The notes: generated by a model from the sequence alone, not told the origin. A stretch of 20,034 bases of DNA from a virus (IMGVR_UViG_3300031787_001060:1-20034); one strand, 5' to 3'. Counted from the stretch's first letter, positions 1,309 through 20,034 are shown. Numbers and translations: made by a program.

Positions 1309-1430
1309 GCCTCGGACGGGGTGTCAAAGCCTGCCATGAATGAAAAACGCCCCACGATTTCTTTCTAAAATGCGAGAGCCGCCCGTTGCCGAGCGGCCCT
1401 GCGTCCCATAGCCGAAGCGCAGGGAGGGAA
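1309..1430 (-). other. Intergenic region between tail and lysis genes
   Basis: About 120 nt with two GC hairpins: CCCTGCG (1397-1403) pairing with CGCAGGG (1418-1424), and GCCGC (1378-1382) pairing with GCGGC (1393-1397). On the minus strand the second is followed by TCTCGCATTTT, so it could be a weak terminator, with a later TTTTT run at about 1343-1347. A 10-codon ORF (MAGFDTPSEA) starts at 1337 and ends in an ATGA overlap with the 1308 gene. TTGACA is at 1322-1327. No promoter is clear. Confidence 0.4.
1322..1327 (-). promoter_or_regulatory. TTGACA element, holin-like gene
   Basis: TTTGACACC on the minus strand, 13 nt before ATG 1308, inside the 10-codon leader ORF. Confidence 0.5.
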
Positions 1431-1715
1431 TTAAGATTGCAACCCCGTCACAGCCTCCGCGCTCGCGGCCTCGTAGTCAGCCTGCGTGATTTCGGTGGCC
1501 GCATTACTGCCAAGGAGTGAGGCAATAGCACTTTGAAATGGCTCCATGTCGCAGTGAGTCGAGCGAATGGCGATCAACACGTTGCCATTACCATCCTTTG
1601 CCGCTGTCTCTAGCGGCTCGATGCTTGTCTCGCCTACGGGAAACGGCCACGCCGCATCCATAGCAAGGCGGGTTTGCTCGTAAGCGGTTGGCTCAACTGT
1701 AAAATATCGGTTCAT
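1431..1715 (-). CDS. Small hypothetical protein after LamG gene
   Basis: A 94-residue protein. The ATG at 1715 overlaps the upstream stop (ATGA), so the longer reading from 1769 is not used. It begins MNRYFTVEPTAYEQTRLAMDAAWPFP, continues with PLETAAKDGNGNVLIAIRSTHCDMEPF and ends in a helix ADYEAASAEAVTGLQS. It is acidic and soluble. A small gene coupled to a receptor-binding gene is often its assembly chaperone, but nothing here proves that. No family recognised. Confidence 0.6.
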   Translation of the reverse strand: MNRYFTVEPTAYEQTRLAMDAAWPFPVGETSIEPLETAAKDGNGNVLIAIRSTHCDMEPFQSAIASLLGSNAATEITQADYEAASAEAVTGLQS

Positions 1716-2641
1716 GTCGATACGTTGCGGTAGGGGTGAGTGGACGGAAGACTCGCAGACAATCCCCACTTGTGCGCGAGGTAGCCTTCGATGGCTTGGC
1801 GTTGCGACGCGGCCAGCGCCTTCTGGTAAAAAATCACCTCACAGATTTTGCCGTCGAAGCAATAGGTATCGGCGTTCCACTGGCGGCCTATTTGCAGATA
1901 TTGGCGCATTGCGGCGTTGTTTGTTTGGCTAATTGCAGATGTTGCTTCGCTCCCGCCATTCAAGCGAATACGCACCGAGCCGCCACTGTGTTCAAAACCA
2001 AACACGGCAAGACTTCCTGCCGTGTATGATTGAGTGGCTGTGGCGTAAGCAGAAAGAAAAGAATAAATGCCAACCGTGTTATTACTCCGCAAATATCCGC
2101 CTAAATATCCAGCTCCGTCTCCATAAAGTGCCTCATTGACGTAAGCATTGGCGCTGTTGGTTGAAACCGTGTCTGCGTAAGCCACAACAAATGCGCTGTA
2201 GGTAGTGTCGTTAATATACGCCCCCAAAGTTCCTGACGATGGCCCTGTGGTGCTATTCCCGTATGGATCAAACAGCTTGTCGTTGTCCCCGTCGAAATCC
2301 AGCGCATCCTTGCTGTTGAACTGCGAGGCGAGGCGAAGCGGTCTGTTGTTGGCAGTGCCCTGCACAAAATGCCGCCCGTTGCCGCTTTTGTCTTCCCACC
2401 GCGACACGGCTCCATTCGCTGCGACAAGCGATCCGCCCGTCACCGCATCGTAAAGCGTCGAACTGTCTGAAGCATCAAGCCACAGAGCTAAAAAAGGGAA
2501 TTTAAGGGGAGAGACGGCGTTCCATTGATTGTCGCGCTGGTAGATTTCCGCCGAGCGCAGCGACCACACGCCGTTGGCCGCGCCGAAGTTTTCGGCTTCG
2601 TCGCGCTTGCCAAGCGTTGAACCGTTCCAGCGAAGCGACAT
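1712..2641 (-). CDS. LamG/concanavalin-like tail protein, receptor-binding candidate
   Basis: A 309-residue protein. Residues 1-45 (SLRWNGSTLGKRDEAENFG; GVWSLRSAEIYQRDNQW) resemble short N-terminal virion-attachment segments. From residue 50 it follows the LamG/Laminin_G_3 pattern: LALWLDASDSSTLYD, VSRWEDKSGNGRHFVQG, LDFDGDNDKLF, then a jelly-roll with AVFGFEHSGGSVRIRLNGG. It ends with ICEVIFYQKALAASQRQ and EGYLAHKWGLSASLPSTHPYR, a C-terminal motif I associate with bacterial LamG proteins of Verrucomicrobiota/Planctomycetota. It probably binds host surface carbohydrate. Start at ATG 2641 shares one base with the upstream stop; its stop overlaps the next start (ATGA). Confidence 0.75.
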   Translation of the reverse strand: MSLRWNGSTLGKRDEAENFGAANGVWSLRSAEIYQRDNQWNAVSPLKFPFLALWLDASDSSTLYDAVTGGSLVAANGAVSRWEDKSGNGRHFVQGTANNRPLRLASQFNSKDALDFDGDNDKLFDPYGNSTTGPSSGTLGAYINDTTYSAFVVAYADTVSTNSANAYVNEALYGDGAGYLGGYLRSNNTVGIYSFLSAYATATQSYTAGSLAVFGFEHSGGSVRIRLNGGSEATSAISQTNNAAMRQYLQIGRQWNADTYCFDGKICEVIFYQKALAASQRQAIEGYLAHKWGLSASLPSTHPYRNVST

Positions 2642-3018
2642 TAGCTGATCTCCTCGTAGCTCACGACCACTTCCAGATCGCTCGCCGTTCCTGCCGTGGC
2701 TCCCAGCGAAGAATCCTCGCGCAGATAGAGCGGGGCGTCCTTGCTCACAACGACCACTGTGGCGTCCGCTGGAACGCTGACGGTGGAGGCAATGCGGAAA
2801 GCGGTGCCGCCGATATCGTCTTGCGTGTAATAGGACACGGTCACATCACAGGCGTTGGTGCCGTCTACGTTGGCGACATAGACCGAGTTGACCTTCATCA
2901 ACTTGCCGCTGCTTGCGGCGTTGTTGAGTATCGCCGTGGCGTTGGTGGTCGAGAGGGCTGTGCCCGCCGTGTAGCCCGTGATGTTTTTCGTGGCGTCATT
3001 GATGTTTGGAGTTGCCAT
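2641..3018 (-). CDS. Small phage virion protein
   Basis: A 125-residue protein with the layout of a small structural protein often seen after fibre genes in environmental phages: MATPNINDATKNITGYTAGTAL, then TNATAILNNAASSGKLMKVNSVYVANVDGT, IASTVSVPADATVVVVSKDAPLYLREDSSL, and DLEVVVSYEEIS. It is probably a beta-sandwich decorating the tail tip or capsid; the exact place in the virion is unknown. Before the ATG at 3018 is AGAAAGACAAAATT, a weak RBS only, 20 nt after the fibre stop. Its stop shares one base with the next start (TAATG). Confidence 0.75.
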   Translation of the reverse strand: MATPNINDATKNITGYTAGTALSTTNATAILNNAASSGKLMKVNSVYVANVDGTNACDVTVSYYTQDDIGGTAFRIASTVSVPADATVVVVSKDAPLYLREDSSLGATAGTASDLEVVVSYEEIS

Positions 3019-3038
3019 AATTTTGTCTTTCTAAAAGT

Positions 3039-5114
3039 TCAGTTGAGGACGAAGCCGACTGCGATTGCTTGGTTGATGGATGCGCCGCCACTCGCCGCCG
3101 CAAAGCTCGGAGCCGACGATGCACCGTTGGAAGTCAGCACCGTGTTGGCCGCGCCAAGGGCAAGCTCGGTCACTTGGCCGCTGCCGTTGCTGTAGAAGAC
3201 CGACCAGTTGCCAGCGGTGTGGTCGCTGGTTCCTGTCATTGCGTGGCTGCGAGTGTGGAAGCGCGAATCGTCGCCAGCCGCAACCGTGTTGGCTCCCGTG
3301 CCGACTGTGACCGAAATCGCTGGCGTGGTTCCGCCCGAAGAAACAATGGGCGCGGTTCCTGTGACGCTGGTGACGCCGCTGGCTGCGGGGTCGGCAAACT
3401 CGACGCCGCTCAAGTCCGACTTGGTGCGGAGAACCTGCCCTGCCGTGCCGAGGGCCAGCGTTGTGACTGCTCCTGCTGTGGTGGTGACGAGCGGGAGGCC
3501 AGAGGTGGAGCCGACTTTTCCGTCGTTCGTTAGGTTGCCGTGGGCGTGGGAGGCTGGGGCCGTGGTAGTCAGCGCGAGGGTGCCAGAGGCGTCTGGCAGA
3601 TCGTAGGTGCGGTTGGCGGTGAGCTTGCCCTGTGCGTCAAAGGTGGCCTTTACTTCGTTCTCGTTGTCTTGAATGGCGACATTGCCGTTGACTTGGAACT
3701 TCGCTCCCCAAGAAGAGACGCCATCGACTACCGCAGGAACTCCGTATCCAGTTTCACCGACAAGAACATCGCCATTGTCGCCAAATGAAATAGTGTTTGA
3801 GGCTAGGCTTTGAGAATAAACATTGAGGCAGCCACTTAGTCCATAAAGCCCTTTGTCGAGAGTTCTGTCAGCGGCGTCACTTCTGTCGGCCACGCCTAAA
3901 AATGCACTGTTCCCTGCAAAAATTACTTCTCCGCTGGGCGAGGTGATAAAGGGAAACGATGCAGAGCTTTCTGAGTAAATGCCAAAACCAGTATTGCCAG
4001 CCGCCGTGGTCGGCACTCCAGATTTTAGAGTATAGGTTTCTTCGGAAACTGGATCGGTGACGCTGATCTCTCTGAAGGAAAGCGGGTCGCTGCCCGCCGC
4101 AACCCCGCCCGAAAGCGTAATTTCTTCAAGGTTGTCGGGAACCTGCGCCCCATCGCCCGAAACAACCTCTGCGGTGTTTGAGGTGTTGGCTGCGTTCCAT
4201 GCGGCGAGAACGGTGTCTATATCATCCACACCGTCGAAGGCGAGTGTGATGCTGTTGCCTGCGGTGCCTACGTTGATGGCGCGGATGAAGACGTTTGTAG
4301 ACATCCCTGCCACTTGGTCGTTGAAACTGGCTTTAATGCCCGTCGCATGGCTTGCCGCATGAGCCAGTGTTGAACTTGGCGTCCTTGCGTTAGTCAAACG
4401 AGTGTCGTTGCCGAGAACGACTTCAGTCGATGAAGCGTTGCCTGTTTTCGGAGTGCGCGTAGAAACGGAGTCCTGCGCGGCGTTGCGCTGGTAATTCGAC
4501 AAAAGCGCCTGATCAACAACAGGCGTGTCGCCACTGCCCTGTGGGCCAAGCACCCAACTCGTTGCCTGCCACGGATAGGTCGTGTCGCCCGCGCTGATAT
4601 AATACTTCTGCGATTGCGACAAATTGCCAAGCACCCACTCTTCTTCGCCGTCATCCCAATACAGTGCATAGCCCTGTGCGGATTTGTAAATCGCCTTGCC
4701 GTTGTCGCTACCGTCGCGGAAATAAATGCCGTTTGGCTCGCCTCCGCTTAAAGTTGTGTCTGAGACATCCACGGCATCGCAATAGATGGCGGTCGGCTGG
4801 TGACCGTGGTTTGCGTTGGCCGCGTCGATTGAGGCAGGTGTGATTGTGACTGCGCCTGTTTGCCCGTTCACGCTGGTGACGGCACCCGACTCGTTGGCCC
4901 ATGCAGGCAACCCCTGTGCCGACACTTTCAAGACTTGGCCCGTTGTGCCAATCGGCAACCGCTCGCCCGTGGCCGCGCCCCGGTAAAGCGTGTCGCCTTG
5001 AGTGGTGAGCGTTTCCAGCCCCGTCCCAGCCGCGCCTGCCGGGCCTTGGGGGCCGGGAGTGCCGACTTCGATGACCTCTTGCGAGGTTGTTTCGATAACA
5101 ATTTCGTCGGCCAT
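3039..5114 (-). CDS. Tail fibre protein
   Basis: A 691-residue fibre. The N-terminus carries a short collagen-like Gly-Pro run (GTPGPQGPAGAAGTG, residues 18-32), which is common before trimeric fibre shafts. It also has SVNGQTGAVTI and three copies of a G-x-x-x-x-V-L repeat with similar surroundings (GTTGQVLKVSAQGLPAW; GTAGQVLRTKSDLSGVEFAD; GAANTVLTSNGASSAPSFA), the standard head-repeat of phage fibres. Near residue 470 it contains a segment GNVAIQDNENEVKATFDAQGKLTANRTYDLPDASG-like that reads as a beta-shaft. No C-terminal autoproteolytic chaperone is visible; the end is short (ASINQAIAVGFVLN). Host adsorption is the expected role. Start ATG 5114 lies 1 nt after the adaptor stop. Confidence 0.8.
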   Translation of the reverse strand: MADEIVIETTSQEVIEVGTPGPQGPAGAAGTGLETLTTQGDTLYRGAATGERLPIGTTGQVLKVSAQGLPAWANESGAVTSVNGQTGAVTITPASIDAANANHGHQPTAIYCDAVDVSDTTLSGGEPNGIYFRDGSDNGKAIYKSAQGYALYWDDGEEEWVLGNLSQSQKYYISAGDTTYPWQATSWVLGPQGSGDTPVVDQALLSNYQRNAAQDSVSTRTPKTGNASSTEVVLGNDTRLTNARTPSSTLAHAASHATGIKASFNDQVAGMSTNVFIRAINVGTAGNSITLAFDGVDDIDTVLAAWNAANTSNTAEVVSGDGAQVPDNLEEITLSGGVAAGSDPLSFREISVTDPVSEETYTLKSGVPTTAAGNTGFGIYSESSASFPFITSPSGEVIFAGNSAFLGVADRSDAADRTLDKGLYGLSGCLNVYSQSLASNTISFGDNGDVLVGETGYGVPAVVDGVSSWGAKFQVNGNVAIQDNENEVKATFDAQGKLTANRTYDLPDASGTLALTTTAPASHAHGNLTNDGKVGSTSGLPLVTTTAGAVTTLALGTAGQVLRTKSDLSGVEFADPAASGVTSVTGTAPIVSSGGTTPAISVTVGTGANTVAAGDDSRFHTRSHAMTGTSDHTAGNWSVFYSNGSGQVTELALGAANTVLTSNGASSAPSFAAASGGASINQAIAVGFVLN

Positions 5115-5115
5115 G

Positions 5116-5472
5116 TTAGCGGGTGACGTTGGCGCTGACGGTCACGATGCCCTGCAACAGGCGCGTGACGATGCCGCCTGCGGAGACGAGTTCTAAATCA
5201 TACACATAGCGGCCCGCAGTAATCGCTGCGGTGTCTGTCGCGCTAATGGACAGCGTGATCGTGCCAGCCGTGCCGCCGAGGGTGATGCGGGTGTTTTCCG
5301 TGGTGAGCGAAAGCGTGGTCGTTGCGCTGGCTGCGGTGGGGCGAATCTGGGCGCGTGCGGTGAATCCGGTCAAATTGACGTTGGCACCGTCCGCCTTGTA
5401 GCGGATGACCCGCGAAAATGTCGCCCCCTGCGGAATGCACAGGTCAAGCTCGTTGCAGCAATCGCAACTCAT
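5116..5472 (-). CDS. BppU-like N-terminal baseplate/fibre adaptor
   Basis: A 118-residue protein. The ATG at 5472 overlaps the upstream stop (ATGA) and has GGAGG 11 nt upstream; a GTG at 5490 would add six residues and is less likely. After a cysteine-containing start (MSCDCCNELDLCIPQGATF) it follows the pattern of the small baseplate adaptor common in siphophages: FSRVIRYKADGANVNLTGF, ARAQIRPTAAS, then VYDLELVSAGGIVTRLLQG and VTVSANVTR at the end. Such proteins sit between baseplate and receptor-binding fibre, and the fibre gene follows after 1 nt. The cysteines could bind metal or be disulphides. Confidence 0.65.
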   Translation of the reverse strand: MSCDCCNELDLCIPQGATFSRVIRYKADGANVNLTGFTARAQIRPTAASATTTLSLTTENTRITLGGTAGTITLSISATDTAAITAGRYVYDLELVSAGGIVTRLLQGIVTVSANVTR

Positions 5473-5654
5473 TTGAAGCGATCCCTCCACGCCTTGCGGA
5501 CGGTCAAAACGCCCGCGATGAGGCCGAGGCCAAGCACGCCCAAGCGCATGGCCGTTTCAAGGTGCGGCAAGAGGCTAACCACCACGGAGCCGAGGCTTGT
5601 GGTCACGCCGATGAGTGGCCGCGAAAAGAAGTCGATTGGGTCGTGGATGCTCAT
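5469..5654 (-). CDS. Small membrane protein, holin-like
   Basis: A 61-residue protein; the ATG at 5654 overlaps the preceding stop (ATGA), which selects this start over longer upstream options. It contains MSIHDPIDFFSRPLIGVTTSLGSVVVSLLPHLE and then a strong hydrophobic segment MRLGVLGLGLIAGVLTV ending in a basic tail RKAWRDRFK. One certain and one possible membrane segment with a basic C-terminus is holin-like, but the gene lies among fibre genes and apart from the endolysin. It could also be a membrane anchor. Its stop overlaps the next ATG (ATGA). Confidence 0.6.
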   Translation of the reverse strand: MSIHDPIDFFSRPLIGVTTSLGSVVVSLLPHLETAMRLGVLGLGLIAGVLTVRKAWRDRFK

Positions 5655-6490: not shown

Positions 6491-6495
6491 GGCGG

Positions 6496-7569: not shown

Positions 7570-7585
7570 CCTTGCCGATGCAAGG
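7570..7585 (-). other. Hairpin touching the start codon of the 7569 gene
   Basis: On the minus strand CCTTGC-ATCG-GCAAGG forms a perfect 6-bp stem that ends at the base immediately before the ATG at 7569. The AAGG inside it is too close to the ATG to serve as an SD. It also sits directly downstream of the TTGACA element at 7586-7591. It could limit or position initiation. Confidence 0.4.
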
Positions 7586-7591
7586 TGTCAA
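7586..7591 (-). promoter_or_regulatory. TTGACA element, gene at 7569
   Basis: TTTGACACC on the minus strand, 16 nt before ATG 7569, with a perfect hairpin filling the gap between element and start. Confidence 0.5.
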
Positions 7592-7602
7592 AGGGGCGGG
7601 CG

Positions 7603-9534: not shown

Positions 9535-11556
9535 TTAGGCAATGGCGCTTTGCGGCAGTTTCTTGTTCAGTTCCTCGAGGATGCCTTTGATCGACTCGAC
9601 CACGCCTTGAAGCGGGTTGTCCCCGCCTCCACCGCCTCCGCGCGGAGCGTTCTTTTGGCGCATGGCTTCCTCCTCGGCGGCTCGCTCTTCGGGGGTTTTG
9701 GCTTGGGTCTTTGGGTTGATTCCGTATTTTTCGGCAAGTCGTTTTTCTTCTTCGGCAATGCGACGATCTATTCGTCCGCGCAACCTTTCCGCCGCACCAA
9801 ACATGCCCCGCTCCTCAAACCGATCCGCCCTGTCTGCTGCGCCTCGGTTTTTGTTTTCCATGCGCGCCAGGTCTGCTCGGATTCCGGCGGCTGTTTTGTC
9901 TACGCTGAAACGCTCTTTGTTGCGCTCAATGGCCAGCCCCGTTTTGCTTAACTTTTGGGATTCCGGCTCAAAACTCACGGACCTTTCACCGCGCTCTCGC
10001 AGGGCGCGACCGAAATCGGTTGATGGGTCGAATGGCCTTGCTTCGCGCACGCCTCCTCCTCGAGGAGCGTTTTTTGCGCGAGCCTCGGCTTCCTCTCTAG
10101 AAATACGCTCGGAATCGGTTTCTTTTGCCTGCTCAACGCGCTCTTGTGAAACTTTTGGATCGACAGTTTCAGACGCCTGCCCGGCGGCGGCCACATTGGC
10201 TGCCAACTGAGCCGACAAAGTTTCCGCTTCGGCAAGGCGGTCGCGCATGTCGATCAGGGGATTCGCAGCGTTGGCGGCGTAGGAATCGGCAAATTGCTTG
10301 GGCATCTCAGCCATAATGCCGCCCCACTCGCTTTTGAGATTTTCGGCCTCATAGTGCATGATGTTGCTGATGTCTGTAATGGCTTGCTCGGCTTCTTTCT
10401 GTGCGCCCCGAACGGCTTCAGCCGCCGCCCCCATAAAAGGAATGTTTTCCAGCACCCCGGCAATGGATTCGAAAATCCCCGAGGCAAGTTTGGCGCCCAA
10501 CATATCAAACGATCCGCGAATGAATGCCATTGTCGTTGAGTTTGGCGCAAACAAAGACTGAAGGGCTTGGCCCATTGTTTGCATCGCGGCCATTCCTGCG
10601 GCAACAATCTCGTTGATGGCATTAAGCGCGGTGTTTTTCGCGGCCATGAACATCAGCGAAAGCCCCTCTGCAAAATTGCCCGAAGTGATTGCCTTGATGG
10701 CGATTTCAATCTGGGCCAGCGCGTCTTTTAATTTGAAAGTTTCCGCGATCCAGTTAACCGTGGCGGCGGCGTATTCGGAAAGCTTGGCCCCAAACCCGGC
10801 CGCGTCGATGTTGGCCAGCCGGGTGCTGAGATCAACCAATGCTGGCGCTACCTGCTCAAGTAGTCCTGCGGCAAACTCTTTGCCCTTTTCGCCGATGGCG
10901 GCGAAGTTGTCGCCGATTGTGTCGAAGGACGCCGTGACGCGGTCCATGACTTGCGGCGTGCTGCCGAGTTGTTTGCGCGCAATATCCAGTTCCACGCCCA
11001 TGGCGCGGAGCAGTGGCAGGAGTTCGCCGCCACTGCGGCCGAGCAGCTGCATGGCAATGGCGCTGCGGTCGGAGTCGTTGCCGACGCCTTGCAATGCGCG
11101 GGCCACGGCTTGAAGTTGCTCGGTCGGGGTCAGGTCTTTGAGGCGCTCAAGATTTAACCCCAATTTGCCAAAGGCTTCGGATTGCTCTTTGCCGCCCTCG
11201 CCCGCCTCAACGATGGCGCGCTGAAGGCGGTTGATGGTCGGGCCAACGGCCTCGGCACCTGCGCCAGCGTTTTCAAAGGCTCGTTGCAAGATGGCGAGGT
11301 TGCCCGCCGTCTCGCCCGTGCGGGCGGAAAGGTCATTAAGCTGGCCGCCCATAGCGATGGCGGCATTAAAAGATTGGGCCGCCGCCCGGATGCCGATGAA
11401 GGCTGCGCCAATTCCCACTACGGCGGCAGCAATCTTCCCAAAGTGGCGACTGATGCCAGCACTGGCAGAAGCGGCCATGCTTTGCAGTGCCTTTGCCCCG
11501 CTATCAAAGCCAGCGGTGTTGAGCGAGGCGTTAAACCTGATTGCTTCCCCTGCCAT
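9535..11556 (-). CDS. Tail tape measure protein
   Basis: The 673-residue tape measure sets tail length and is ejected with the DNA. The N-terminus (AIRFNASLNTAGFDSGAKAL) is a common tape-measure opening, followed by a hydrophobic segment at residues 41-60 (KIAAAVVGIGAAFIGIRAAA). Next comes the characteristic block LNDLSARTGETAGNLAILQRAFENAG, then QAVARALQGVGNDSDRSAIAMQLLGRSGGELLPLL, both typical of siphophage tape measures. The middle is Ala-rich and helical. From about residue 480 the protein is charged and low in hydrophobics, with two copies of KNAPRGGG at about 495 and 635. By the usual 0.15 nm per residue, the tail would be about 100 nm (inference). Start ATG 11556 lies 18 nt after the upstream stop, with TTGACA 16 nt away. 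Confidence 0.92.
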   Translation of the reverse strand: MAGEAIRFNASLNTAGFDSGAKALQSMAASASAGISRHFGKIAAAVVGIGAAFIGIRAAAQSFNAAIAMGGQLNDLSARTGETAGNLAILQRAFENAGAGAEAVGPTINRLQRAIVEAGEGGKEQSEAFGKLGLNLERLKDLTPTEQLQAVARALQGVGNDSDRSAIAMQLLGRSGGELLPLLRAMGVELDIARKQLGSTPQVMDRVTASFDTIGDNFAAIGEKGKEFAAGLLEQVAPALVDLSTRLANIDAAGFGAKLSEYAAATVNWIAETFKLKDALAQIEIAIKAITSGNFAEGLSLMFMAAKNTALNAINEIVAAGMAAMQTMGQALQSLFAPNSTTMAFIRGSFDMLGAKLASGIFESIAGVLENIPFMGAAAEAVRGAQKEAEQAITDISNIMHYEAENLKSEWGGIMAEMPKQFADSYAANAANPLIDMRDRLAEAETLSAQLAANVAAAGQASETVDPKVSQERVEQAKETDSERISREEAEARAKNAPRGGGVREARPFDPSTDFGRALRERGERSVSFEPESQKLSKTGLAIERNKERFSVDKTAAGIRADLARMENKNRGAADRADRFEERGMFGAAERLRGRIDRRIAEEEKRLAEKYGINPKTQAKTPEERAAEEEAMRQKNAPRGGGGGGDNPLQGVVESIKGILEELNKKLPQSAIA

Positions 11557-11572: not shown

Positions 11573-11578
11573 TGTCAA
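11573..11578 (-). promoter_or_regulatory. TTGACA element, tape measure gene
   Basis: CTTGACACC on the minus strand, 16 nt before ATG 11556. The upstream gene's TGA stop is inside it. Confidence 0.5.
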
Positions 11579-12334: not shown

Positions 12335-12960
12335 CTAAAGGCCGCCTGTCAGCGCATCCTCAAGCAGTGCGTCAATGTCTTTGGCTCCGCGTGTGCCGCT
12401 ATCGACCCACCTTGGATGTTGACCGCCGATGATGTCGTCCCACAAAAGCATCTGATTGAGCGCGGCCAGCGGCAAATGCCAGATAGCCTGCTCAATGCTA
12501 ATGCCGTATTTGGCCACGCGGGCGGCAAGGCAGAGTTGCCACGCCGGGCGGGCCTTTAGGCTTTTGGGGCGTCAGTTCCCTGAGAATCTGCCGCAGTGGA
12601 CTGCGTGATCGTGGCGGCAACCCGCTCCATCTGGCTGGTAATCCAAGGGGTAAAGGCGAACATATCGGCTGGCGCGCGAGCGTCCATCCACTCGTAAATG
12701 TCGGCCTTGAGGTCATCAATGGTCGCAATACGACGTCGGATGTCGATGATCGGCATGGAGTGGAGGTAGACGAAAGAATAAACAGCGAAAGCGTAGTCGC
12801 CGTCAGGTTCCCCCGTCACAAAACTGTTTTTCAGCCGGGTCAGCAGGCTCCATGTCGCTGCGGTAACTGGCCGAAGCGTGATGCCGTTGATTTGTTCGTC
12901 GCCAGCAAGGGCAGATACCTCAAGCAGCGTTTCTCTTTTTTCGGGATCTATATCGTGCAT
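12335..12960 (-). CDS. Tail assembly chaperone, -1 frameshift form (gpGT-like)
   Basis: The long form is made by a -1 ribosomal frameshift at CCCAAAA (plus-strand 12562-12568). In the zero frame this reads GCC CCA AAA GCC TAA, which matches the X XXY YYZ rule exactly. After slipping, translation continues as AGC CTA AAG ... (SLKARPAWQLCLAARV) and runs without a stop into AKYGISIEQAIWHLPLAALNQMLLWDD, ending at 12335. This gives about 208 residues, of which 75 come from the second frame. The second part has no independent good start: GTG 12517 is in frame but lacks an RBS. In lambda the T part recruits the tube protein while the G part binds the tape measure. The next gene's GTG begins 1 nt after its stop. 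Confidence 0.82.
12556..12960 (-). CDS. Tail assembly chaperone, short form (gpG-like)
   Basis: The 134-residue zero-frame product of the tail assembly chaperone locus. It begins MHDIDPEKRETLLEVSALAGDEQINGITLRPVTAATWSLL and continues with helices around YAFAVYSFVYLHSMPI and IYEWMDARAPADMFAF, ending TDAPKA. Its position just upstream of the tape measure (one gene between), its length and the frameshift at its 3' end fit lambda gpG-type chaperones, which coat the tape measure before tube polymerisation. The stop TAA is one codon after the slippery site. ATG 12960 has TTGACA 16 nt upstream and no SD. Confidence 0.8.
   Translation of the reverse strand: MHDIDPEKRETLLEVSALAGDEQINGITLRPVTAATWSLLTRLKNSFVTGEPDGDYAFAVYSFVYLHSMPIIDIRRRIATIDDLKADIYEWMDARAPADMFAFTPWITSQMERVAATITQSTAADSQGTDAPKA
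12562..12568 (-). other. -1 frameshift slippery heptamer CCCAAAA
   Basis: The minus strand reads C CCA AAA in the zero frame, followed by GCC TAA. Both tRNAs can re-pair after a one-base backward slip (CCA to CCC, AAA to AAA). The new frame is open to 12335. GC-rich sequence downstream could form a stimulatory structure, which I did not resolve. Confidence 0.8.
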
Positions 12961-12975: not shown

Positions 12976-13014
12976 CTGTCAAAGCAAACAGGGCGGCCCG
13001 TGAGGACCGCCCTG
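12976..13014 (-). terminator. Terminator-like hairpin before tail assembly chaperone
   Basis: An 8-bp stem (12989-12996 CAGGGCGG with 13007-13014 CCGCCCTG) encloses a 10-nt loop that can pair further (CC with GG). On the minus strand it is followed by TTTGCTTTG. It sits 30 nt past the stop at 13044 and just before the chaperone gene. The U-rich tail is interrupted, so termination may be partial. The TTGACA element at 12977-12982 lies within the tail. Confidence 0.6.
12977..12982 (-). promoter_or_regulatory. TTGACA element, tail assembly chaperone gene
   Basis: TTTGACAGC on the minus strand, 16 nt before ATG 12960, in the U-rich tail of the preceding hairpin. No SD follows it. Confidence 0.5.
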
Positions 13015-13043
13015 CCGAGCGACACACATAGTCCAAGCCAAAG

Positions 13044-13445
13044 TTACATGATAAGCTGGGCCAAATCCCGCTTGGTCGTGGCGTCGAGATGCTTGTCGGC
13101 CAGCATGACCCCGCCCTGCGGGAGGTTTACCAAAACAAGCTGGCGGGTCTTCTTGAAGATTACGTCAAGGAAAAGCTCGCGGTTGAACAGCGAGGCCCGC
13201 GCGCCGGGAAGGTCGGGAAGCTGGTCGCGCAGAGCTTCACAAGCGTCTTGGCCCTCGATGACGGCTTGCACGATGGCGGCTGTGCTAACGCCGTTGGCCC
13301 CTTCGCAGCGAAACCAGTAGTGAACCGTCTCCTTGCCCTTGTGGATGACGCGCGAAATCGGGTCTTGCTGCCGAAGCTCCACGCCAACGGTGGCGAGGCA
13401 CGAAGCGACCTTGGTGTCGGTGGTAGCGAAGTATGGTTCCTGCAT
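13044..13445 (-). CDS. DUF5659-like hypothetical protein in tail module
   Basis: A 133-residue protein. The first 48 residues (YFATTDTKVASCLATVGVELRQ... then HKGKETVHYWFRCEG) resemble the small DUF5659-type domain, in which a T(S/T)D-x-x-A-x-x-L start is followed by a second strand pair ending in W/F-x-F. This match is from memory and tentative. The rest is helical with a basic stretch FLDVIFKKTRQLVLVNLP and ends KRDLAQLIM. It lies between the possible tail tube and the tail assembly chaperone, and is flanked by hairpins on both sides (13462-13475 and 12989-13014), so it may be expressed as its own unit. Role in the virion is unknown. Confidence 0.55.
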   Translation of the reverse strand: MQEPYFATTDTKVASCLATVGVELRQQDPISRVIHKGKETVHYWFRCEGANGVSTAAIVQAVIEGQDACEALRDQLPDLPGARASLFNRELFLDVIFKKTRQLVLVNLPQGGVMLADKHLDATTKRDLAQLIM

Positions 13446-13461
13446 AATCTCTAATCTCTAA

Positions 13462-13475: not shown

Positions 13476-13481
13476 GGGGCG

Positions 13482-13832: not shown

Positions 13833-13848
13833 AGTATCTATGCCGCGT

Positions 13849-13854
13849 TGTCAA
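13849..13854 (-). promoter_or_regulatory. TTGACA element, putative tail tube gene
   Basis: GTTGACAAC on the minus strand, 16 nt before ATG 13832 and 1 nt after the upstream stop codon. No SD follows it. Confidence 0.5.
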
Positions 13855-13855
13855 C

Positions 13856-14080: not shown

Positions 14081-14492
14081 AGCTTACAGGGTCAAATTCG
14101 ATGCCCCACACCTTGACCAGATCCGAGGCGTTGAGGGCGGTAAGAAAGCTCGGCCCGTCCACGGTGGCCGAAAGGTCATGCCAAAGTTCTTTGAAGCCCG
14201 CCGCGCCCTCGTCATCGTCTTCGCTGTCGGGCAGGCGGCGTTCGTTGCGTTCCTCGTCGGGGGTTTCATCGGCGGCTGTGGTCAACGTAACAGCCACGCG
14301 CGCGTTCCATGTCTGCATCCCCAAGACCACCTCATCCAACTTCTCGGCGCGGACGGTGATGGATGGCAAAATGTCCTCGTCGGACTCGTCGGCGCTACTG
14401 ATGCGGCAGGCGGCGAGGTTGCTGTCGGCTTCCAGTGCGGTAATGACGGCGCGTTCCAAAGATTCCTCAAGGCTGTAAGCGGGGGCGGTCAT
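14004..14492 (-). CDS. Putative tail terminator/neck protein
   Basis: A 162-residue acidic protein. The opening (SLEESLERAVITALEAD) is a helix typical of tail-terminator/completion proteins (gpU- or gp10-like), followed by strands IRISS-like/PSITVRAE and WNARVAVTLTT, then an acidic linker (DSEDDDEGAAG), and a final WGIEFDPVSYENENRSFRRSINFRCWL segment. These features and the position after a connector protein suggest it closes the tail tube at the neck. Start is ATGA-coupled to the upstream gene. Its last 77 nt are overlapped out of frame by the next ORF. No motif proves the assignment. Confidence 0.45.
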   Translation of the reverse strand: MTAPAYSLEESLERAVITALEADSNLAACRISSADESDEDILPSITVRAEKLDEVVLGMQTWNARVAVTLTTAADETPDEERNERRLPDSEDDDEGAAGFKELWHDLSATVDGPSFLTALNASDLVKVWGIEFDPVSYENENRSFRRSINFRCWLNEAYPAA

Positions 14493-14794
14493 TTCGTTTC
14501 TGGCGACTGAAGGGTTAGGTCGATCGAGGCGACATCGGTGTCTATGCCTACGATGCGGTAGCGCCGCCCGGCGTATTTCACGATTCCGCCCATGCGGAAG
14601 TCAGGCGCACCCTCCTTCAAGACGGTGGCGGTCAGTCCGCGCGATGGTTCAAAGCCGCCCTCGCCAAGCTGGTTGGCATAAGTCTCCTCGCCCACCACGG
14701 CCCTGTAACAGCGTTCGCGGTATTCGATTTCGTCGGCGATGGTGGCAACGGATTCCTCGCACCCGGCGGTGTAAGCTTGGGCAAACTGACTCAT
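14489..14794 (-). CDS. Head-tail joining-like protein
   Basis: A 101-residue protein in the slot normally held by small connector proteins, after the capsid region and before the tail genes. The C-terminal half (APDFRMGGIVKYAGRRYRIVGID followed by IDLTLQS) is a compact beta-rich segment like the small beta-barrel head-tail joining/adaptor proteins (gpFII-type). It has ATGA overlaps at both ends: its start with the glycosyltransferase stop and its stop with the next start. CTGACA lies 13 nt upstream of the ATG, one base off the recurrent TTGACA element. The function is by position and general look, not by a diagnostic motif. Confidence 0.5.
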   Translation of the reverse strand: MSQFAQAYTAGCEESVATIADEIEYRERCYRAVVGEETYANQLGEGGFEPSRGLTATVLKEGAPDFRMGGIVKYAGRRYRIVGIDTDVASIDLTLQSPETK

Positions 14795-16575
14795 GCGCTG
14801 GGGGCGGTGTCAGCGGCTGTAATGGGGCCAGGATTGCGGCGGCGAAAGACTTCGTTGCCGAATTTGTAGGCATCGTCCGAGTTTTCCATTTTGTAGGTGT
14901 CGTCGGTCGGGATGGCCGGATTCCAGAACGGATGCTCATGCTTGAAGGCAATGTCGCTTGGGACAAAGAACGGGAAACGGCGGGCGCGCAGGCTGAATTC
15001 GGTGTCCGAGAAAACGCCGTGGTATTCTTGGCAAAGGATATTCTGCTTGCCGTAGCCGAGGCGCGCAAAGGTCGGGCGCGTCATGCAAAACGTGACCATA
15101 AGCTCGTCGTTGCGGTAGCCGTCTTTGATTTGCAGGATGGCGGGCTTGTTGGCGTCCACATGGGGCGCGAGTGCCTCGATGATCTGCTTGTCCCAATGCA
15201 GACCGGGGAACACGTCATCCTGGGCGGTGATGATGATGCGGCCGGTGGCGGCGTTGGTGGCGGCGTTGTAGTTCTGCACGGCGGTGCCGCCGACTTGCTC
15301 GAGGTGGCCGGCAGGCGAGAGCGCATGGCGGAAACGGGAGAGCAGGCCGACGGATTCCTCGTCATCGGCCGAGAAACCGAAGATGTATTCGATGGCCTCC
15401 GGGTTGGCGGCGGCATCGAGCCAGCGTTTGCGGGTCTGTGCGGCTTGTTGGGCGCGGGCGCGGGTCGGGTGGCATACGCTGATTGAATATTTGTGCGCGG
15501 CAATGCGGGCGGTTTCGATTTTGTCGGCCTTTTCGATCTGGCCGGCCATGCGGAGCCATTGCGTCCAGAGGGTCTCCCCTGCCCAGCCATAGAGGCCGTC
15601 GCGGTGGGTCCATGGTTTATCAACGGGGCGCGGCAGGGCCATCATGCTGCGGAGGTAGGCTTCGGCCGCGACCATGTCGCCGAGGTCGAGGTGCATGGCG
15701 CCGAGTAGGGCCAACGCCTCGCGGCGGTTGGGCTGGGTGCGGTAGGCCGAATGCAGCGCGGTGAGCATGGCTTTGTATTCGGCGGAGTCGGTCTCGAGGA
15801 TAGGCGGGCGGGCCAGCTCGCAGATGTTGAGGCAGAGTTCGTAGCGTTCGGTCGGGGCCAGCTCGGGGTGCGCCAGGCATTCTTTGGCCAGTGCCATGGC
15901 CTCGTTCTTTCGGCCGTGGCCCATGTATTCGCCGTGCAAGTGATAAGTCTCAGCTAGGCTGCGCTCGGCGGCCGGGATGCTTTCGAGGATGGTGACGTTG
16001 CGGTTGGCGCCCTGCTTTGGCTCATCGTCGGGGAGATGGACCACGACCGGCGCATCGCAGCGGGCGATCTTGGCGTCGGCGTCGAGTTGGAAGTTCTCGT
16101 GGATGCGATTAACCCACTTGCCCTTGTCGCGGCGGACGAGGCGCTCGCGGATGTTGTGGGCGATGCCTCGGCCGGCCACGTCGTGGTAAAGGGCGAAGGC
16201 GTCGAAGTCGGCGCCGAACTTGGTGAGCAGCTCGTGGAGAGCCTGGGCGAAGTCGGGGCCGGGCGTATCGTCGGCATCGACCCAGAGCGCCCAGGGCTTG
16301 GTGGCCAAGTCGAAGGAGGCTTGCCGGGCGGCGCCGAAGTCATCGACGTGGGGCCAATCGTTCTTGGGGTCGTTAACGTAGACGCCCATTTTGGCACCGT
16401 GTTTCTGGCAGACGCGGGCGACCTCAAGGTCGGGCGGCGTGTTGCCGTGGGCGTGGACGACGCACAGTTCGCTGACGACGGGGTCGAATTGAGTAAGGCA
16501 GCGATCCAAGCGCAGGGGTTCGTTGCCGACGATGACGCAAAGCGCGATTTGCTCGCGCGGGCTTGGGTTCTCCAT
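14791..16575 (-). CDS. Two-domain glycosyltransferase (GT2/GT-A fold) with TPR-like middle
   Basis: This 594-residue protein begins with a GT2 domain (residues 9-185): LCVIVGNEPLRLDRCL is the nucleotide-binding start, WVDADD (98-103) holds the metal/sugar-nucleotide DXD motif, and NRIHE (157-160) resembles the late motif of WaaE-like GT2 enzymes. Residues 205-310 form Ala/Leu-rich helical pairs like TPR repeats (EAMALAKECLAHPELAPTERY; REALALLGAMHLDLGD). A second GT-A-like domain starts at about 362 (SISVCHPTRARA...), with QDD at 452-454 and SDTEF at 523-527. It sits in the head cassette between capsid and connector, and its stop overlaps the next start (ATGA), so it is part of the late operon. 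It probably glycosylates a virion or host-surface component in the cytoplasm; the target is unknown. The ATG at 16575 has TTGACA 17 nt upstream. Family call is secure, function is inference. Confidence 0.85.
   Translation of the reverse strand: MENPSPREQIALCVIVGNEPLRLDRCLTQFDPVVSELCVVHAHGNTPPDLEVARVCQKHGAKMGVYVNDPKNDWPHVDDFGAARQASFDLATKPWALWVDADDTPGPDFAQALHELLTKFGADFDAFALYHDVAGRGIAHNIRERLVRRDKGKWVNRIHENFQLDADAKIARCDAPVVVHLPDDEPKQGANRNVTILESIPAAERSLAETYHLHGEYMGHGRKNEAMALAKECLAHPELAPTERYELCLNICELARPPILETDSAEYKAMLTALHSAYRTQPNRREALALLGAMHLDLGDMVAAEAYLRSMMALPRPVDKPWTHRDGLYGWAGETLWTQWLRMAGQIEKADKIETARIAAHKYSISVCHPTRARAQQAAQTRKRWLDAAANPEAIEYIFGFSADDEESVGLLSRFRHALSPAGHLEQVGGTAVQNYNAATNAATGRIIITAQDDVFPGLHWDKQIIEALAPHVDANKPAILQIKDGYRNDELMVTFCMTRPTFARLGYGKQNILCQEYHGVFSDTEFSLRARRFPFFVPSDIAFKHEHPFWNPAIPTDDTYKMENSDDAYKFGNEVFRRRNPGPITAADTAPSA
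14808..14813 (-). promoter_or_regulatory. CTGACA variant element, head-tail joining gene
   Basis: CTGACACC on the minus strand, 13 nt before ATG 14794. One base differs from the other elements. It lies in the end of the glycosyltransferase gene. Confidence 0.35.
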
Positions 16576-16592
16576 CTCGGGCGGAGCGCCTT

Positions 16593-16598
16593 TGTCAA
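16593..16598 (-). promoter_or_regulatory. TTGACA element, glycosyltransferase gene
   Basis: TTGACA on the minus strand, 17 nt before ATG 16575, directly after the T-tract of the capsid terminator. No SD is seen. Confidence 0.5.
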
Positions 16599-16599
16599 C

Positions 16600-16631
16600 A
16601 AACGAAAACCCCGGGCGGATGCCCGGGGCTT
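16600..16631 (-). terminator. Rho-independent terminator after capsid gene
   Basis: A perfect 8-bp GC stem (16609-16616 CCCCGGGC pairing with 16621-16628 GCCCGGGG) closes a 4-nt loop. On the minus strand it is followed by TTTTCGTTTG. It lies 29 nt past the capsid stop and before the glycosyltransferase start. Attenuation here would lower expression of everything downstream relative to capsid. The T-tract runs into the TTGACA element at 16593-16598. Confidence 0.8.
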
Positions 16632-16656
16632 CGTGTTGCGGTTGTGAGTGGAGAAA

Positions 16657-17553
16657 CTACGCTCCGAGAGCCAGCTTCGCGGCACCCGTGATCGCGCGGG
16701 ACGCGCCGAACACGCACTCGAAGGAAACGTAGTGTTTGCCGGTCGAGGGGTTGTAGTGGCGGCGGTAGCCGAGGGTCAGGCCGCTCTGCGGATCGTTGAC
16801 CACGGTGGCGGCCAAATATTCGCTGGGAGCCTGCGGCTCGAGGGCGCGGACAGCGATGGCGGCGGCGTTCGGGTGAACGGCCATGGCAGCCAGGCTGATG
16901 CTGTTGGTCGGGAGAATCAGACTTTCGTATGCATTCATCCCCAAAATGCGGGGCACGCGGCCTTCGGCGATCACGTCGCGGGAACCAAAGGCGCTGGCAT
17001 CCAACAGGCCCGACTGCGACAGAAGGCTGTCGTAGAGGTTGGTGTTGAGGATGAGCGCGCGGCCCGTGACGGGCACCTTCTCGTCGGACAGCGCCTTGCG
17101 GAGCGCCCTCGCGTTCGTGATGGTGAACGCGGAGAGGTTGGTCAGCGTGGCGCTGAACTGCGCGGCGCTGCCGGCCGTGGTGACGAACAGGTTGTAGAAC
17201 GAGGTCAGCACCGACTGCGCGAGAGCCTTGCCCTGCTGGGTGGCGAACTTGGTGATCTCGGCAACCGAAGACTTGGAGTATTCGGTGTCGGACAGCGAAA
17301 CCGTCACGATGCGATGGGTATCGACGTTGATCGTGACCTTGTTCATCGTGCCGCCGTCTGCCTCGTAGGAGTCAGCGAAGGTGGTCGCGGTGAGGTTGGC
17401 GATGAGCGGGACTTCGACCGATGCGCCACGACGCACGACTTCGTTGGAATACGAGGTCGTGAAGATGGACAACGGCTCCAGATCCGCAGTGAAAGACTCG
17501 AGCGCCGCTTGGGCGATGAGCTTGTCGTTGAGGGCTGAGTTGATGGTAGCCAT
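16657..17553 (-). CDS. Major capsid protein (HK97-fold)
   Basis: A 298-residue protein placed directly after the protease/scaffold gene, the canonical position for the major head protein. The N-terminus (MATINSALNDKLIAQAALES, then LEPLSIFTTSYS) resembles the short N-arm of capsid proteins without a long cleaved delta domain. Middle blocks such as KVTINVDTHRIVTVSLSDTEY, and the C-terminal LGYRRHYNPSTGKHYVSFECV block, fit an HK97-fold coat. It would assemble the icosahedral shell around the scaffold. The ATG at 17553 lies 12 nt after the protease stop, with no SD; upstream is only CTAACACCTAACTTTT. A strong hairpin terminator follows the gene, so capsid may be made in excess of downstream products. 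The exact capsid family is not assigned; a structure prediction should show the A- and P-domains and E-loop. Confidence 0.85.
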   Translation of the reverse strand: MATINSALNDKLIAQAALESFTADLEPLSIFTTSYSNEVVRRGASVEVPLIANLTATTFADSYEADGGTMNKVTINVDTHRIVTVSLSDTEYSKSSVAEITKFATQQGKALAQSVLTSFYNLFVTTAGSAAQFSATLTNLSAFTITNARALRKALSDEKVPVTGRALILNTNLYDSLLSQSGLLDASAFGSRDVIAEGRVPRILGMNAYESLILPTNSISLAAMAVHPNAAAIAVRALEPQAPSEYLAATVVNDPQSGLTLGYRRHYNPSTGKHYVSFECVFGASRAITGAAKLALGA

Positions 17554-17565
17554 AAAAGTTAGGTG

Positions 17566-17940
17566 TTAGAGGACGTAGGTGGAAAAGATTTCGCGTTTGT
17601 GCGCGCGGTAAAACTCGGTGGCGGCAGCACCCTCGAGGGCGGCAAACTTTTGCGCGGCGGTCAGTTCCGGCTCGGGAGCGACGACAGCCACGGAGTCAAT
17701 GCCAACAGAAGCGACGATTGCCGCAGCCTGCTCACCAGCACTTTTGGACGCGGCGAGCAGTTCGTTGATTTGCTCGTCCTTGCTGGCGCTCTCGGCGGTG
17801 AGGCGTTCGACTTCGGCCTTGAGGGTTTCGATTTCCTTGGCCGTCACTTCGTCGGCTTGCGCGCGGACGGTGTCGGCTTCGACTTTGGCGTTGAGTTCGG
17901 CCTGGAGGGCGTCAACCTTCGCTTGAAGTTCGGCGTTCAT
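17566..17940 (-). CDS. Candidate nested scaffold protein (internal start in protease gene)
   Basis: An in-frame ATG at 17940 (Met243 of the protease fusion) would yield a 124-residue protein made almost entirely of the coiled-coil scaffold region, starting MNAELQAKVDALQ. It is preceded by both a GAGG SD-like run (CCGAGGATAAT before ATG) and the TTGACA element at 17958-17963, 17 nt from the ATG. This is one of the best-supported initiation contexts in the window. In lambda-type phages the scaffold is produced this way from within the protease gene, so the arrangement has precedent. A longer form starting at ATG 18057 (Met204, MARKSANLPK) is an alternative; it has TTGACA 14 nt upstream but no SD, and its ACTTTATGGCC context resembles the capsid start. 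Whether one, both or neither is used cannot be told from sequence. Confidence 0.5.
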   Translation of the reverse strand: MNAELQAKVDALQAELNAKVEADTVRAQADEVTAKEIETLKAEVERLTAESASKDEQINELLAASKSAGEQAAAIVASVGIDSVAVVAPEPELTAAQKFAALEGAAATEFYRAHKREIFSTYVL

Positions 17941-18666
17941 ATTATCCTCGGAGGAGATGTCAACGGCGTCGTCGGTGACGGGCGCTTCGACCGTCGGCTC
18001 CACGACTGCGGGAGCGGCCTCTTCGGCTTTCGGTAGGTTGGCGGATTTGCGGGCCATAAAGTTGGAAAACTTGTCAAAGCGCGCGCGGGCGGCTTCGGGC
18101 GTGACGGAGGCGGCGGCTTCGATGCCGTCTTCGATTTCGTCGGCAAAGCCCATGGCCACGGCCTCGGTAGCATCAAGCCACGTTTCGTCGTCCATCATGC
18201 TGGCGATGGTTGATGCCTCCATCCCGGTCTTGCGCGAATAGGCGTTGACCAAAGTGTTTTTGAGTTTGTCGAGAACGTCGGCCTCTTTGCGGAGATCGTC
18301 GGCGTCACCGACGCTCAGGCTCCACGGGTTATGGATCATCAGCATGGCGTTCTCTGCCATGACGACTTCCTCGCCGGCCATGGCAATGACGGACGCCATC
18401 GACGCCGCAAGTCCATCAACATGAACGGTTAAGCCGCCTTTGTGTCGTCGCAGGGAATTGTAAATGGCCGCGCCTTCAATGACCGAGCCACCAACGGAAT
18501 TGATGCGGAGGTCAATGTGCTGGCCTTTGTATTTTTTAACCTCGGCCAGAAAGTCTTTGGCGGTAACTCCTCCGAAGCCAATCTCGTCGTAGATAGAAAT
18601 CTCAACGCTGCCGGGGGCTTCGCTGTTTGCGGGCGATTGAATTGCATACCAGCGGTTCGCGCTCAT
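17566..18666 (-). CDS. ClpP-like prohead protease fused to scaffold domain
   Basis: Head maturation serine protease of the ClpP/crotonase fold (S14/S49-like, comparable with lambda gpC) with a C-terminal scaffold. Residues 20-180 are the protease: INSVGGSVIEGAAIYN (about 55-70) is the ClpP glycine-rich turn, the nucleophile is Ser89 in GLAASMAS, the base is His112 in MIHNP, and the acid is probably Asp159/160 in DDETWLD before the ATEAVAMGFAD motif. Residues 205-240 are an acidic Pro/Ala linker. Residues 243-305 are heptad-like and Glu/Lys/Ala-rich, as expected for a coiled-coil scaffold. The final segment FYRAHKREIFSTYVL may contact capsid. The start overlaps the portal stop (ATGA) and has TTGACA 14 nt upstream. 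In-frame internal ATGs at 18057 and 17940 may make scaffold alone, as Nu3 does within lambda C. All catalytic residues look intact. Confidence 0.92.
   Translation of the reverse strand: MSANRWYAIQSPANSEAPGSVEISIYDEIGFGGVTAKDFLAEVKKYKGQHIDLRINSVGGSVIEGAAIYNSLRRHKGGLTVHVDGLAASMASVIAMAGEEVVMAENAMLMIHNPWSLSVGDADDLRKEADVLDKLKNTLVNAYSRKTGMEASTIASMMDDETWLDATEAVAMGFADEIEDGIEAAASVTPEAARARFDKFSNFMARKSANLPKAEEAAPAVVEPTVEAPVTDDAVDISSEDNMNAELQAKVDALQAELNAKVEADTVRAQADEVTAKEIETLKAEVERLTAESASKDEQINELLAASKSAGEQAAAIVASVGIDSVAVVAPEPELTAAQKFAALEGAAATEFYRAHKREIFSTYVL
17958..17963 (-). promoter_or_regulatory. TTGACA element before internal ATG 17940
   Basis: TTGACA on the minus strand, 17 nt before Met243 (ATG 17940). 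Here a GAGG SD-like run also lies between the element and the ATG, making this the strongest internal start candidate. Confidence 0.5.
18072..18077 (-). promoter_or_regulatory. TTGACA element before internal ATG 18057
   Basis: TTTGACAAG on the minus strand, 14 nt before Met204 of the protease gene (ATG 18057). It lies inside coding sequence in the same frame as the downstream ATG, which may mark an internal scaffold start. Confidence 0.4.
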
Positions 18667-20034
18667 TGCTGCGGTGGCGGTGTCAATGGCTCGCCGGGGG
18701 TGACTGGTGCGGGGTTCGGATTGAAAGTGGCGATGGAGTCGGGGCTAATGCCGAACTCGGCGGAAAGATCGGCAAGGAACTTGGCCTCGACGGCGCGCTG
18801 GCGGAGTTGGTCTTTCCACTCGAAGCCGCGCTCGGAGTAATCCTCCGAGTAGGTGCGGAGGCCGGCGCGAACGTCGTTGAGGTTCGCGGCGGCTTCGCGG
18901 CCGTAGTCCACCGATGCGGCGGCCGGGCGTTGCCACTCGACGCGCCACCAGTTTTCGTTCTGCGGGATGAGGCCGCGCTGCATGCCAATGGTGATGACGT
19001 GCGCCCAGACGCGGGAGCAGAGGCGGTCGATCAGCAATGCCTGGCGCTGCTCAAAGGTGCGTTGGGCGCGGACCAAGACGGCGCGCAGGGCGGCGCCGCC
19101 GGCCTCGGCCGGGCGTGCGGCGAACTCCCAAGGCACGCCGAGGTTCAAGCAGACTTCGCGCAGAAGGATGTCGCAGAACTCGCGGAAGTTTTGCGACGGG
19201 CGGTTCGATGTCCACGAGATGAGGTCTTCGCCCATGGAGAGGCGCGGGATGGCACCGCCGGCATTGCCGAGGCTTTCGACGGTGATCTCGTTGGTGCCTT
19301 CGCTATTGATCGAGGTGCTCGACTCGCCGAAGAAGTCAGCGCCCTGCGGGTTGGACGATTTGATGGCGAGCGCGATGTAGGAGGAAATTTTGATGGCCAT
19401 CTTCTCGAAGCTGACGGCGTCGGACACGTCGCGCAGGTGATTGATGGACGGCGCGAGTGGTGTGACAAAGCGCAGCTCGTCGCCCTGGCTGGCCTCGCCA
19501 ACGTGAATCATTTGCGCGGCCGGGATGTCCTCAAAGCGAGCCGAGGTGTCGATGCCGTCGCCGATCAGATGGCGGTAGAAGATGGGGCGCATCTGGGCGT
19601 TGACCACCACGCCGTCGATGACGTTCTGGCCACTTTCGCGGGCGGTGGGATTGGAGGGTTCGTAGATCGAGGAGCGGGCATCGCCGATGCGGTGGGCAAG
19701 GATAAGTTGCAGGGCGGGATAGCCGGTGGACTGCACGGCGGGGCGGAAGAAGACCTCGCCGTCGCGGTCGATGGCGACGGAGGCCAGGCGCTGCATCTCG
19801 CGCCAGGTGTAGCGGCCTTGCAGGTCGGCCACGCGGGACCACTGCTCGAAGAAGGCTTCGGCGGCGGCGTCCCAACGCTCGTCACCGCTGCGGGCTTGCG
19901 GACGGATGCCGGAGCCGACGGCGTAGCGGGCTTTCTCAGTGATGAGGCCGCGCAGGAAAGGCGCGTTGTTGTAAAGCCAGCGGGACAATTTCATCAGGCG
20001 CTCGCGGTCGGCGCCGCTCACGTCGATGTGGCTA
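18663..20034 (-). CDS. Phage portal protein, lambda (gpB-like) family, 5' end outside window
   Basis: The portal forms the dodecameric ring at the capsid vertex through which DNA is packaged and to which the neck attaches. The visible 450-odd residues have the lambda-type pattern: an N-terminal segment RWLYNNAPFLRGLI followed by ARYAVGSGIRPQ, then an ID(R)DGEVFF block, a LILAHRIGD stretch, and the conserved later block CDILLREVCLNLGVPWEF. A GTG lies at 20021, but the frame stays open upstream to the window edge (S-H-I-D before it), so the true start is probably outside; lambda gpB is about 530 residues. The gene ends in an ATGA overlap with the protease gene, indicating translational coupling. 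The C-terminus is Pro/Gln-rich and probably disordered. Portal-protease-capsid order supports the call. Terminase would be expected just upstream, off the window. Confidence 0.9.
   Translation of the reverse strand, partial: SHIDVSGADRERLMKLSRWLYNNAPFLRGLITEKARYAVGSGIRPQARSGDERWDAAAEAFFEQWSRVADLQGRYTWREMQRLASVAIDRDGEVFFRPAVQSTGYPALQLILAHRIGDARSSIYEPSNPTARESGQNVIDGVVVNAQMRPIFYRHLIGDGIDTSARFEDIPAAQMIHVGEASQGDELRFVTPLAPSINHLRDVSDAVSFEKMAIKISSYIALAIKSSNPQGADFFGESSTSINSEGTNEITVESLGNAGGAIPRLSMGEDLISWTSNRPSQNFREFCDILLREVCLNLGVPWEFAARPAEAGGAALRAVLVRAQRTFEQRQALLIDRLCSRVWAHVITIGMQRGLIPQNENWWRVEWQRPAAASVDYGREAAANLNDVRAGLRTYSEDYSERGFEWKDQLRQRAVEAKFLADLSAEFGISPDSIATFNPNPAPVTPGEPLTPPPQQ
18681..18686 (-). 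promoter_or_regulatory. TTGACA start-associated element, protease gene
   Basis: TTGACACC on the minus strand, 14 nt before ATG 18666, located inside the 3' end of the portal gene. There is no SD between the element and the start. Confidence 0.5.

Follow-up and report, generated by a model that had tools for sequence, protein, structure and literature searches.

A phage-specific TTGACA element ahead of late-gene start codons in a phage group linked to Verrucomicrobiota

Late genes and TTGACA sites of the window

The window analysed here, an entire IMG/VR virus record (20,034 bp), carries its late genes on the minus strand in the order portal (PF05136), ClpP-type head protease (PF00574), capsid, glycosyltransferase-like protein (PF00535), further late genes and tape measure. 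The protease gene (17566-18666) matches head maturation proteases (PF00574, 1.7e-35; phrog_133, 1.3e-79). Directly after the capsid gene in the late operon lies a gene for a 594-aa protein (14791-16575) with a family 2 glycosyltransferase match, which is kept in relatives. A search of the window for Rfam families found none.

The closest named phage is Verrucomicrobia phage P8625 (27.5% identity for the portal, 30% for the capsid) and, judging from the relatives, the family probably infects Verrucomicrobiota. A capsid search of genome contigs found no genome with a close copy of the window's prophage. G004, a full-length relative of the window, encodes a tyrosine integrase, so that the phage group is probably temperate. 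Near the end of the same record, a frame resembling a translated tRNA (34640-34807, coding orientation) is common to prophage regions, which points to a tRNA gene as the integration site; no intact tRNA was detected by ARAGORN.

Examination of the window confirmed nine exact TTGACA hexamers on the minus strand and the absence of any from the plus strand. All nine lie 13-17 nt upstream of an ATG, seven at gene starts and two at in-frame internal ATGs (18057 and 17940) of the protease gene (Table 1). At the measured background of 6.6% per site, nine of nine has a chance of 2.4e-11, and the preliminary description was right in calling the placement far from random. The number of hexamers is ordinary, dinucleotide shuffles giving 7.7 on both strands; it is their strand and position that are unusual. 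The tenth site of that description, a CTGACA, is present as well, and an eleventh that it lacked, the CTGACA before GTG 12333, is kept in the orthologs listed.

Table 1. Positions of the TTGACA and CTGACA sites and of the nested scaffold-like ORF in the window
Feature	Position	Strand	Conservation or support
TTGACA, 14 nt before ATG 18666 (protease gene 17566-18666)	18681..18686	-	27/28 distinct ortholog leaders
TTGACA inside protease ORF, 14 nt before in-frame ATG 18057	18072..18077	-	24/26 distinct orthologs
TTGACA inside protease ORF, 17 nt before in-frame ATG 17940 (probable scaffold start)	17958..17963	-	27/27 orthologs
Nested in-frame scaffold-like ORF, 124 aa, at 3' end of protease gene, start behind element	17566..17940	-	
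TTGACA, 17 nt before ATG 16575 (594-aa glycosyltransferase-like protein)	16593..16598	-	18/19 distinct orthologs
CTGACA variant, 13 nt before ATG 14794	14808..14813	-	sequence; CTGACA enriched before ATG in family
TTGACA, 16 nt before ATG 13832	13849..13854	-	18/18 distinct orthologs
TTGACA, 16 nt before ATG 12960	12977..12982	-	17/18 distinct orthologs
CTGACA variant, 13 nt before GTG 12333	12347..12352	-	same hexamer and place in listed orthologs
TTGACA, 16 nt before ATG 11556 (tape measure)	11573..11578	-	13/13 distinct orthologs
TTGACA, 16 nt before ATG 7569	7586..7591	-	13/13 distinct orthologs, spacer varies among them
TTGACA, 13 nt before ATG 1308 (57 aa)	1322..1327	-	related spacer-13 sites in other loci

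The preliminary description had proposed a non-Shine-Dalgarno (SD) initiation signal, or an RNA-processing or protein-binding site, used at starts uncoupled from an upstream stop. An RNA element linked to translation is favoured by the results below; the restriction to uncoupled starts does not hold as a strict rule. The protease start at 18666 overlaps the portal stop (ATGA) and still has the element, its conserved TTGACA falling in the last codons of the portal ORF. Conversely, the starts at 17553 (capsid), 13445 and 3018 are uncoupled and lack it.

Other sequences were noticed in the leaders. At the start at 13445, which has no TTGACA, AGAGATTAGAGATT adjoins the ATG (13446-13459) and is kept in several close relatives. 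Additionally, TTTTAGAAAGA occurs twice in intergenic leaders (about 1356-1366 and 3024-3034). Inverted repeats that read as GC-rich and terminator-like (16605-16629 and 12991-13012) lie directly upstream of the TTGACA sites at 16593 and 12977, and the first of them is largely kept in relatives.

Conservation of the element and constraint on its sequence

A capsid related to that of the window was found in 44 IMG/VR loci, whose TTGACA copies lie nearly all on the coding strand, 13-18 nt before an ATG. The ten longer relatives carry 10-12 TTGACA start sites per record, against 0 or 1 for a backward-pattern control. The start association claimed for the window extends to its relatives: in the window and eight of them together, 97 of 110 coding-strand copies stand 13-17 nt before an ATG (log10 p -98), and several of the 13 exceptions have a GTG at 13 nt. 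An unbiased hexamer scan of the window and eight long relatives (301 kb) ranked TTGACA first, followed by its own overlaps and CTGACA, and revealed nothing comparable on the reverse strand. CTGACA is itself enriched in the family, 21 of 50 copies being found before an ATG. At orthologous starts, which were called crudely in the relatives, the hexamer stays while the remainder of the leader diverges; the core is sharp, with flanking positions at or below about 0.4 bit.

The same arrangement occurs in two further IMG/VR clades, where 334 of 367 and 80 of 101 coding-strand TTGACA copies are at ATG or GTG starts. Moreover, the capsid profile matches 23 of 388 Verrucomicrobiota genomes, in the prophage regions of which TTGACA is the top hexamer at 13-18 nt, with a strong coding-strand bias in several. 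Read individually, these prophage sites precede the starts of long ORFs, many of them GTG. Clade preferences are apparent, one clade favouring GTTGAC followed by A or G and another TTTTGACA, and a TTGACG variant is also used in one clade. The distinct TTGACA start sites across clades and prophages total 533. In a RecA tree the motif-positive hosts group with both Opitutales and Verrucomicrobiales; the prophage regions of the closely related hosts G126 and G155 are without the element. Control phages, P8625 included, have no comparable combination of strand bias and start association, and the AT-rich SNW-1 has chance matches.

Several features of these and other phages were recorded alongside. 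The pooled prophage regions L204-L215 are strongly enriched in GAAAGGA, which is SD-like, 6-11 nt before ATG, and TTGACA is nearly absent from the high-GC prophage regions L208 and L211-L213. In P8625 (L046), TTGACA occurs 36 nt upstream of an ATG at 5412-5448, 10736-10772 and 15558-15594, with a hairpin-like repeated GTATCC...GGATAC in between; these may be promoters of leaderless starts or the element at a wider spacing.

Away from starts, TTGACA is avoided inside phage genes, with 3 copies observed against 41.6 expected from codon shuffling. TGTCAA, which reads TTGACA on the complementary strand, is also depleted (12 against 30.9), so part of the avoidance may be general. In hosts there was little depletion inside genes and none that was clear, in a count that used longer ORFs and treated gene-end sites differently, and whose phage figure of 10 is not comparable with the 3 given above.

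The two sites within the protease ORF allow nucleotide and protein constraint to be separated. The codons at 17958..17963 read GTT GAC Axx in 27 of 27 orthologs, GTT making up 18% of Val codons elsewhere, and those at 18072..18077 read TTT GAC Axx in all 24 orthologs that fit the frame. Fixed codons beside a variable third residue mean that conservation is stricter for the nucleotides than for the protein. Nested in-frame starts behind the element were also found in the c371 clade and in prophages. In phages of the lambda C/Nu3 type, the 3' part of the protease gene also encodes an in-frame scaffold with its own start. The predicted nested ORF of the window has this layout, being in frame, at the protease 3' end and with its own start.

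Host chromosomes, Shine-Dalgarno content and start-region structure

In 800 kb of host chromosome from five prophage-bearing genomes, only 2 of 654 gene starts have TTGACA at the right distance (21 and 22 nt), and the distance from TTGACA to the next ATG has no clear peak. In the 3.75-Mb chromosome of G172, 67 matches at the right spacing compare with 65 at a wrong spacing, and the same-strand TTGACA sites of its prophage are clustered within about 28 kb. A scan of 34 genomes was uninformative, its backward-pattern control having no correction for TTGACA frequency. Like its position and conservation, the phage-specificity of the element is well established by computation, host gene starts being without it; a host-wide translation signal was rejected on the chromosome tests in the five genomes and G172.

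SD-like sequences are found at 3% of marked starts, against 16% of unmarked starts and 9% of randomly chosen places, in a comparison of 60 marked and 271 other starts that relies on crude gene calls. The complementarity to host 16S rRNA that the preliminary description suggested looking for was not found. Verrucomicrobiota 16S rRNA ends in GGATCACCTCCTTTCT, which has no pairing with TTGACA, and TGTCAA/TGTCAG is missing from most of the Verrucomicrobiota 16S sequences examined (some loci being partial genes), the few that carry it having it at unconserved places. With no conserved complement, pairing with 16S rRNA was rejected as the mechanism.

RNA folding was computed from -16 to +18, a range that excludes the hexamer. 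Marked starts fold more strongly than dinucleotide shuffles in three clades (z -1.05, -0.71 and -0.65), as against z of about 0 at other starts. By ortholog group, 49 of 76 are negative (mean z -0.69, p 7e-5). Taken by itself, neither the part upstream nor the part downstream has extra structure, which appears only in the range spanning the start codon; this codon tends to be slightly more open than the sequence on either side of it. RNAalifold mostly returned no consensus structure for the ortholog groups; there is accordingly no single conserved shape, and no covariation is claimed. Being modest and not universal, start-region structure is supporting and not decisive. A special exposure of the hexamer was considered and rejected (unpaired probability 0.52, against 0.51 with shuffled flanks), as was a hairpin in the spacer alone, which was not significant.

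A start element for late mRNAs: alternatives and known systems

The position of the hexamer relative to starts, the depletion of SD sequences there, the nested scaffold starts, the conserved codons and the avoidance elsewhere in genes together argue for an RNA element linked to translation. We consider, with a probability of roughly 60%, that TTGACA, and less often CTGACA, is a phage-specific start element of late mRNAs through which a trans-acting factor promotes SD-independent initiation. The position, conservation, codon constraint, strand bias, in-gene avoidance, SD depletion, host absence and start structure are computed properties of the sequences; we infer from them an effect on translation, activation as its direction and the existence of a factor. 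The best reading, in which the element promotes or gates SD-independent translation of late genes, would work as follows. Lying at about -24 to -14, the element would be at or just outside the 5' edge of the initiating 30S subunit and would mark starts that are without an SD sequence. Most probably a trans-acting factor, either phage-encoded or mobilised in lytic growth, would recognise UUGACA and help the 30S subunit to load at the neighbouring start region, or help to open that region, which is folded more often than at other starts. The late structural genes, among them the scaffold inside the protease gene, would in this way gain an SD-independent initiation of their own.

Some observations count against this explanation. 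The capsid gene, the one most obviously in high demand, does not have the element, and a BLAST and PHROGs search found no candidate factor common to the motif-bearing clades, whose only genes in common at BLAST level are those for terminase, portal, capsid and some of the tail. A tentative extension, which we consider somewhat doubtful, is that late-gene translation in temperate phages throughout Verrucomicrobiota is licensed by a dedicated phage-linked reader of UUGACA, with host mRNAs left untouched.

A factor binding at the same place could also act in the opposite direction, as a phage protein that binds UUGACA together with the folded start region and keeps ribosomes off many late mRNAs. 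Such a repressor operator would agree with a site near the start codon of many genes, with the extra start structure and with the low SD content. The known sites of T4 RegA, however, overlap or abut the AUG and are A+U rich and unstructured (PMC3014915), the hexamer here being 13-18 nt away, and a replacement initiation signal accounts better for the depletion of SD sequences at exactly the marked starts than an additional repressor site would; repression therefore appears unlikely. Cleavage of the late polycistronic mRNA at UUGACA by a sequence-specific endonuclease, leaving 5' ends with short leaders, would in turn fit a sequence-specific, sense-strand element that is avoided inside genes and stands near starts. 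We regard it as improbable, since two conserved copies lie inside the protease ORF and another in the last portal codons, where cutting would destroy messages, and since cleavage need not hold a distance of 13-18 nt to the AUG. Slightly less probable still is a signal read by the host, in which a Verrucomicrobiota ribosome component, rRNA or RNA-binding protein recognises UUGACA and is exploited by phages. The element does occur in phages from two host orders, and these phages have little in common beyond head, packaging and a few tail genes; some Verrucomicrobiota are also SD-poor. Host starts nevertheless do not use TTGACA and host genes do not clearly avoid it, 16S rRNA has no conserved complement, and closely related hosts carry prophages both with and without the element.

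The hexamer is identical to the sigma-70 -35 box, and a DNA-level role, as the -35 of internal promoters or as a binding site for a late activator carrying a sigma-4-like HTH, was also weighed. In relatives, the late operon begins with a gene for a weakly sigma-like HTH protein (phrog_351, E 0.0018), and P8625 has TTGACA at a promoter-like distance, about 36 nt, before some ATGs. Matches to a -10 box at 15-19 nt spacing amount to 4% in the window family against 4% in the control, 1% against 4% in the c371 clade and 23% against 6% in the c229 clade. The promoter reading was rejected on the missing -10 box in two of three clades; a promoter for the same gene, excluded in the preliminary description, finds no support in these two, and the case is less clear in c229, which has some excess. 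Unlike a -35 box, TTGACA keeps its distance to the start codon, occurs within ORFs and also precedes nested in-frame starts, and RNA initiated from it would begin inside the gene. A transcriptional element is hence the least probable of the alternatives and highly unlikely. In G004 (coding orientation, 9555-10136; L163), the probable start of a sigma-like HTH gene is itself preceded by TTGACA, which is a lead only.

Some Verrucomicrobiota, which keep an intact anti-SD, are among the bacteria in which SD pairing is scarce (PMC10783764), and how ribosomes locate starts in such bacteria is an open question. The present virus group seems to have adopted a six-letter start mark of its own, used at no fewer than ten genes per genome, retained despite wide divergence and avoided elsewhere. 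If the element drives initiation, it would be a phage-selective translation switch, and mutation of six bases would offer a direct handle on SD-independent initiation. In practice, it provides a rule for annotating start codons, including those of nested scaffold genes, in these little-studied phages.

The open-access literature searched contains no description of such an element. Like the SD sequence, it is short and held at a constrained distance upstream of start codons; SD spacing is roughly 4-10 nt, as opposed to 13-18 nt for TTGACA, and the sequence is also wrong. The nearest precedent is the start-associated sequences (SAS/ESAS) of Cluster K mycobacteriophages, whose function is undetermined and about half of whose genes also have an inverted repeat (PMC3203893). 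Both are short conserved phage sequences in one orientation immediately upstream of many starts. SAS is 13 nt long (GGGATAGGAGCCC), with an AGGAG core that pairs with 16S rRNA at the ribosome-binding position (PMC3203893), whereas the TTGACA core has 6 nt, lies at about -24 to -14 between little-conserved flanks, has neither an SD nor a conserved complement in 16S rRNA, and belongs to phages of another phylum. The Com protein of phage Mu, an RNA-binding protein that activates translation of the mom mRNA (PMC6483171), embodies a similar idea of a factor acting on a folded start region, and marked starts are indeed more structured than other starts, modestly so (49/76 ortholog groups). Com acts on the mom mRNA, whereas here one hexamer is common to at least ten late genes per genome. 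RegA of phage T4 likewise offers the likeness of one phage protein controlling initiation on many mRNAs, about 30, near the start codon; it represses, at sites that overlap or abut the AUG, are unstructured and have no clear shared sequence (PMC3014915), in contrast to the sharply conserved hexamer described here.
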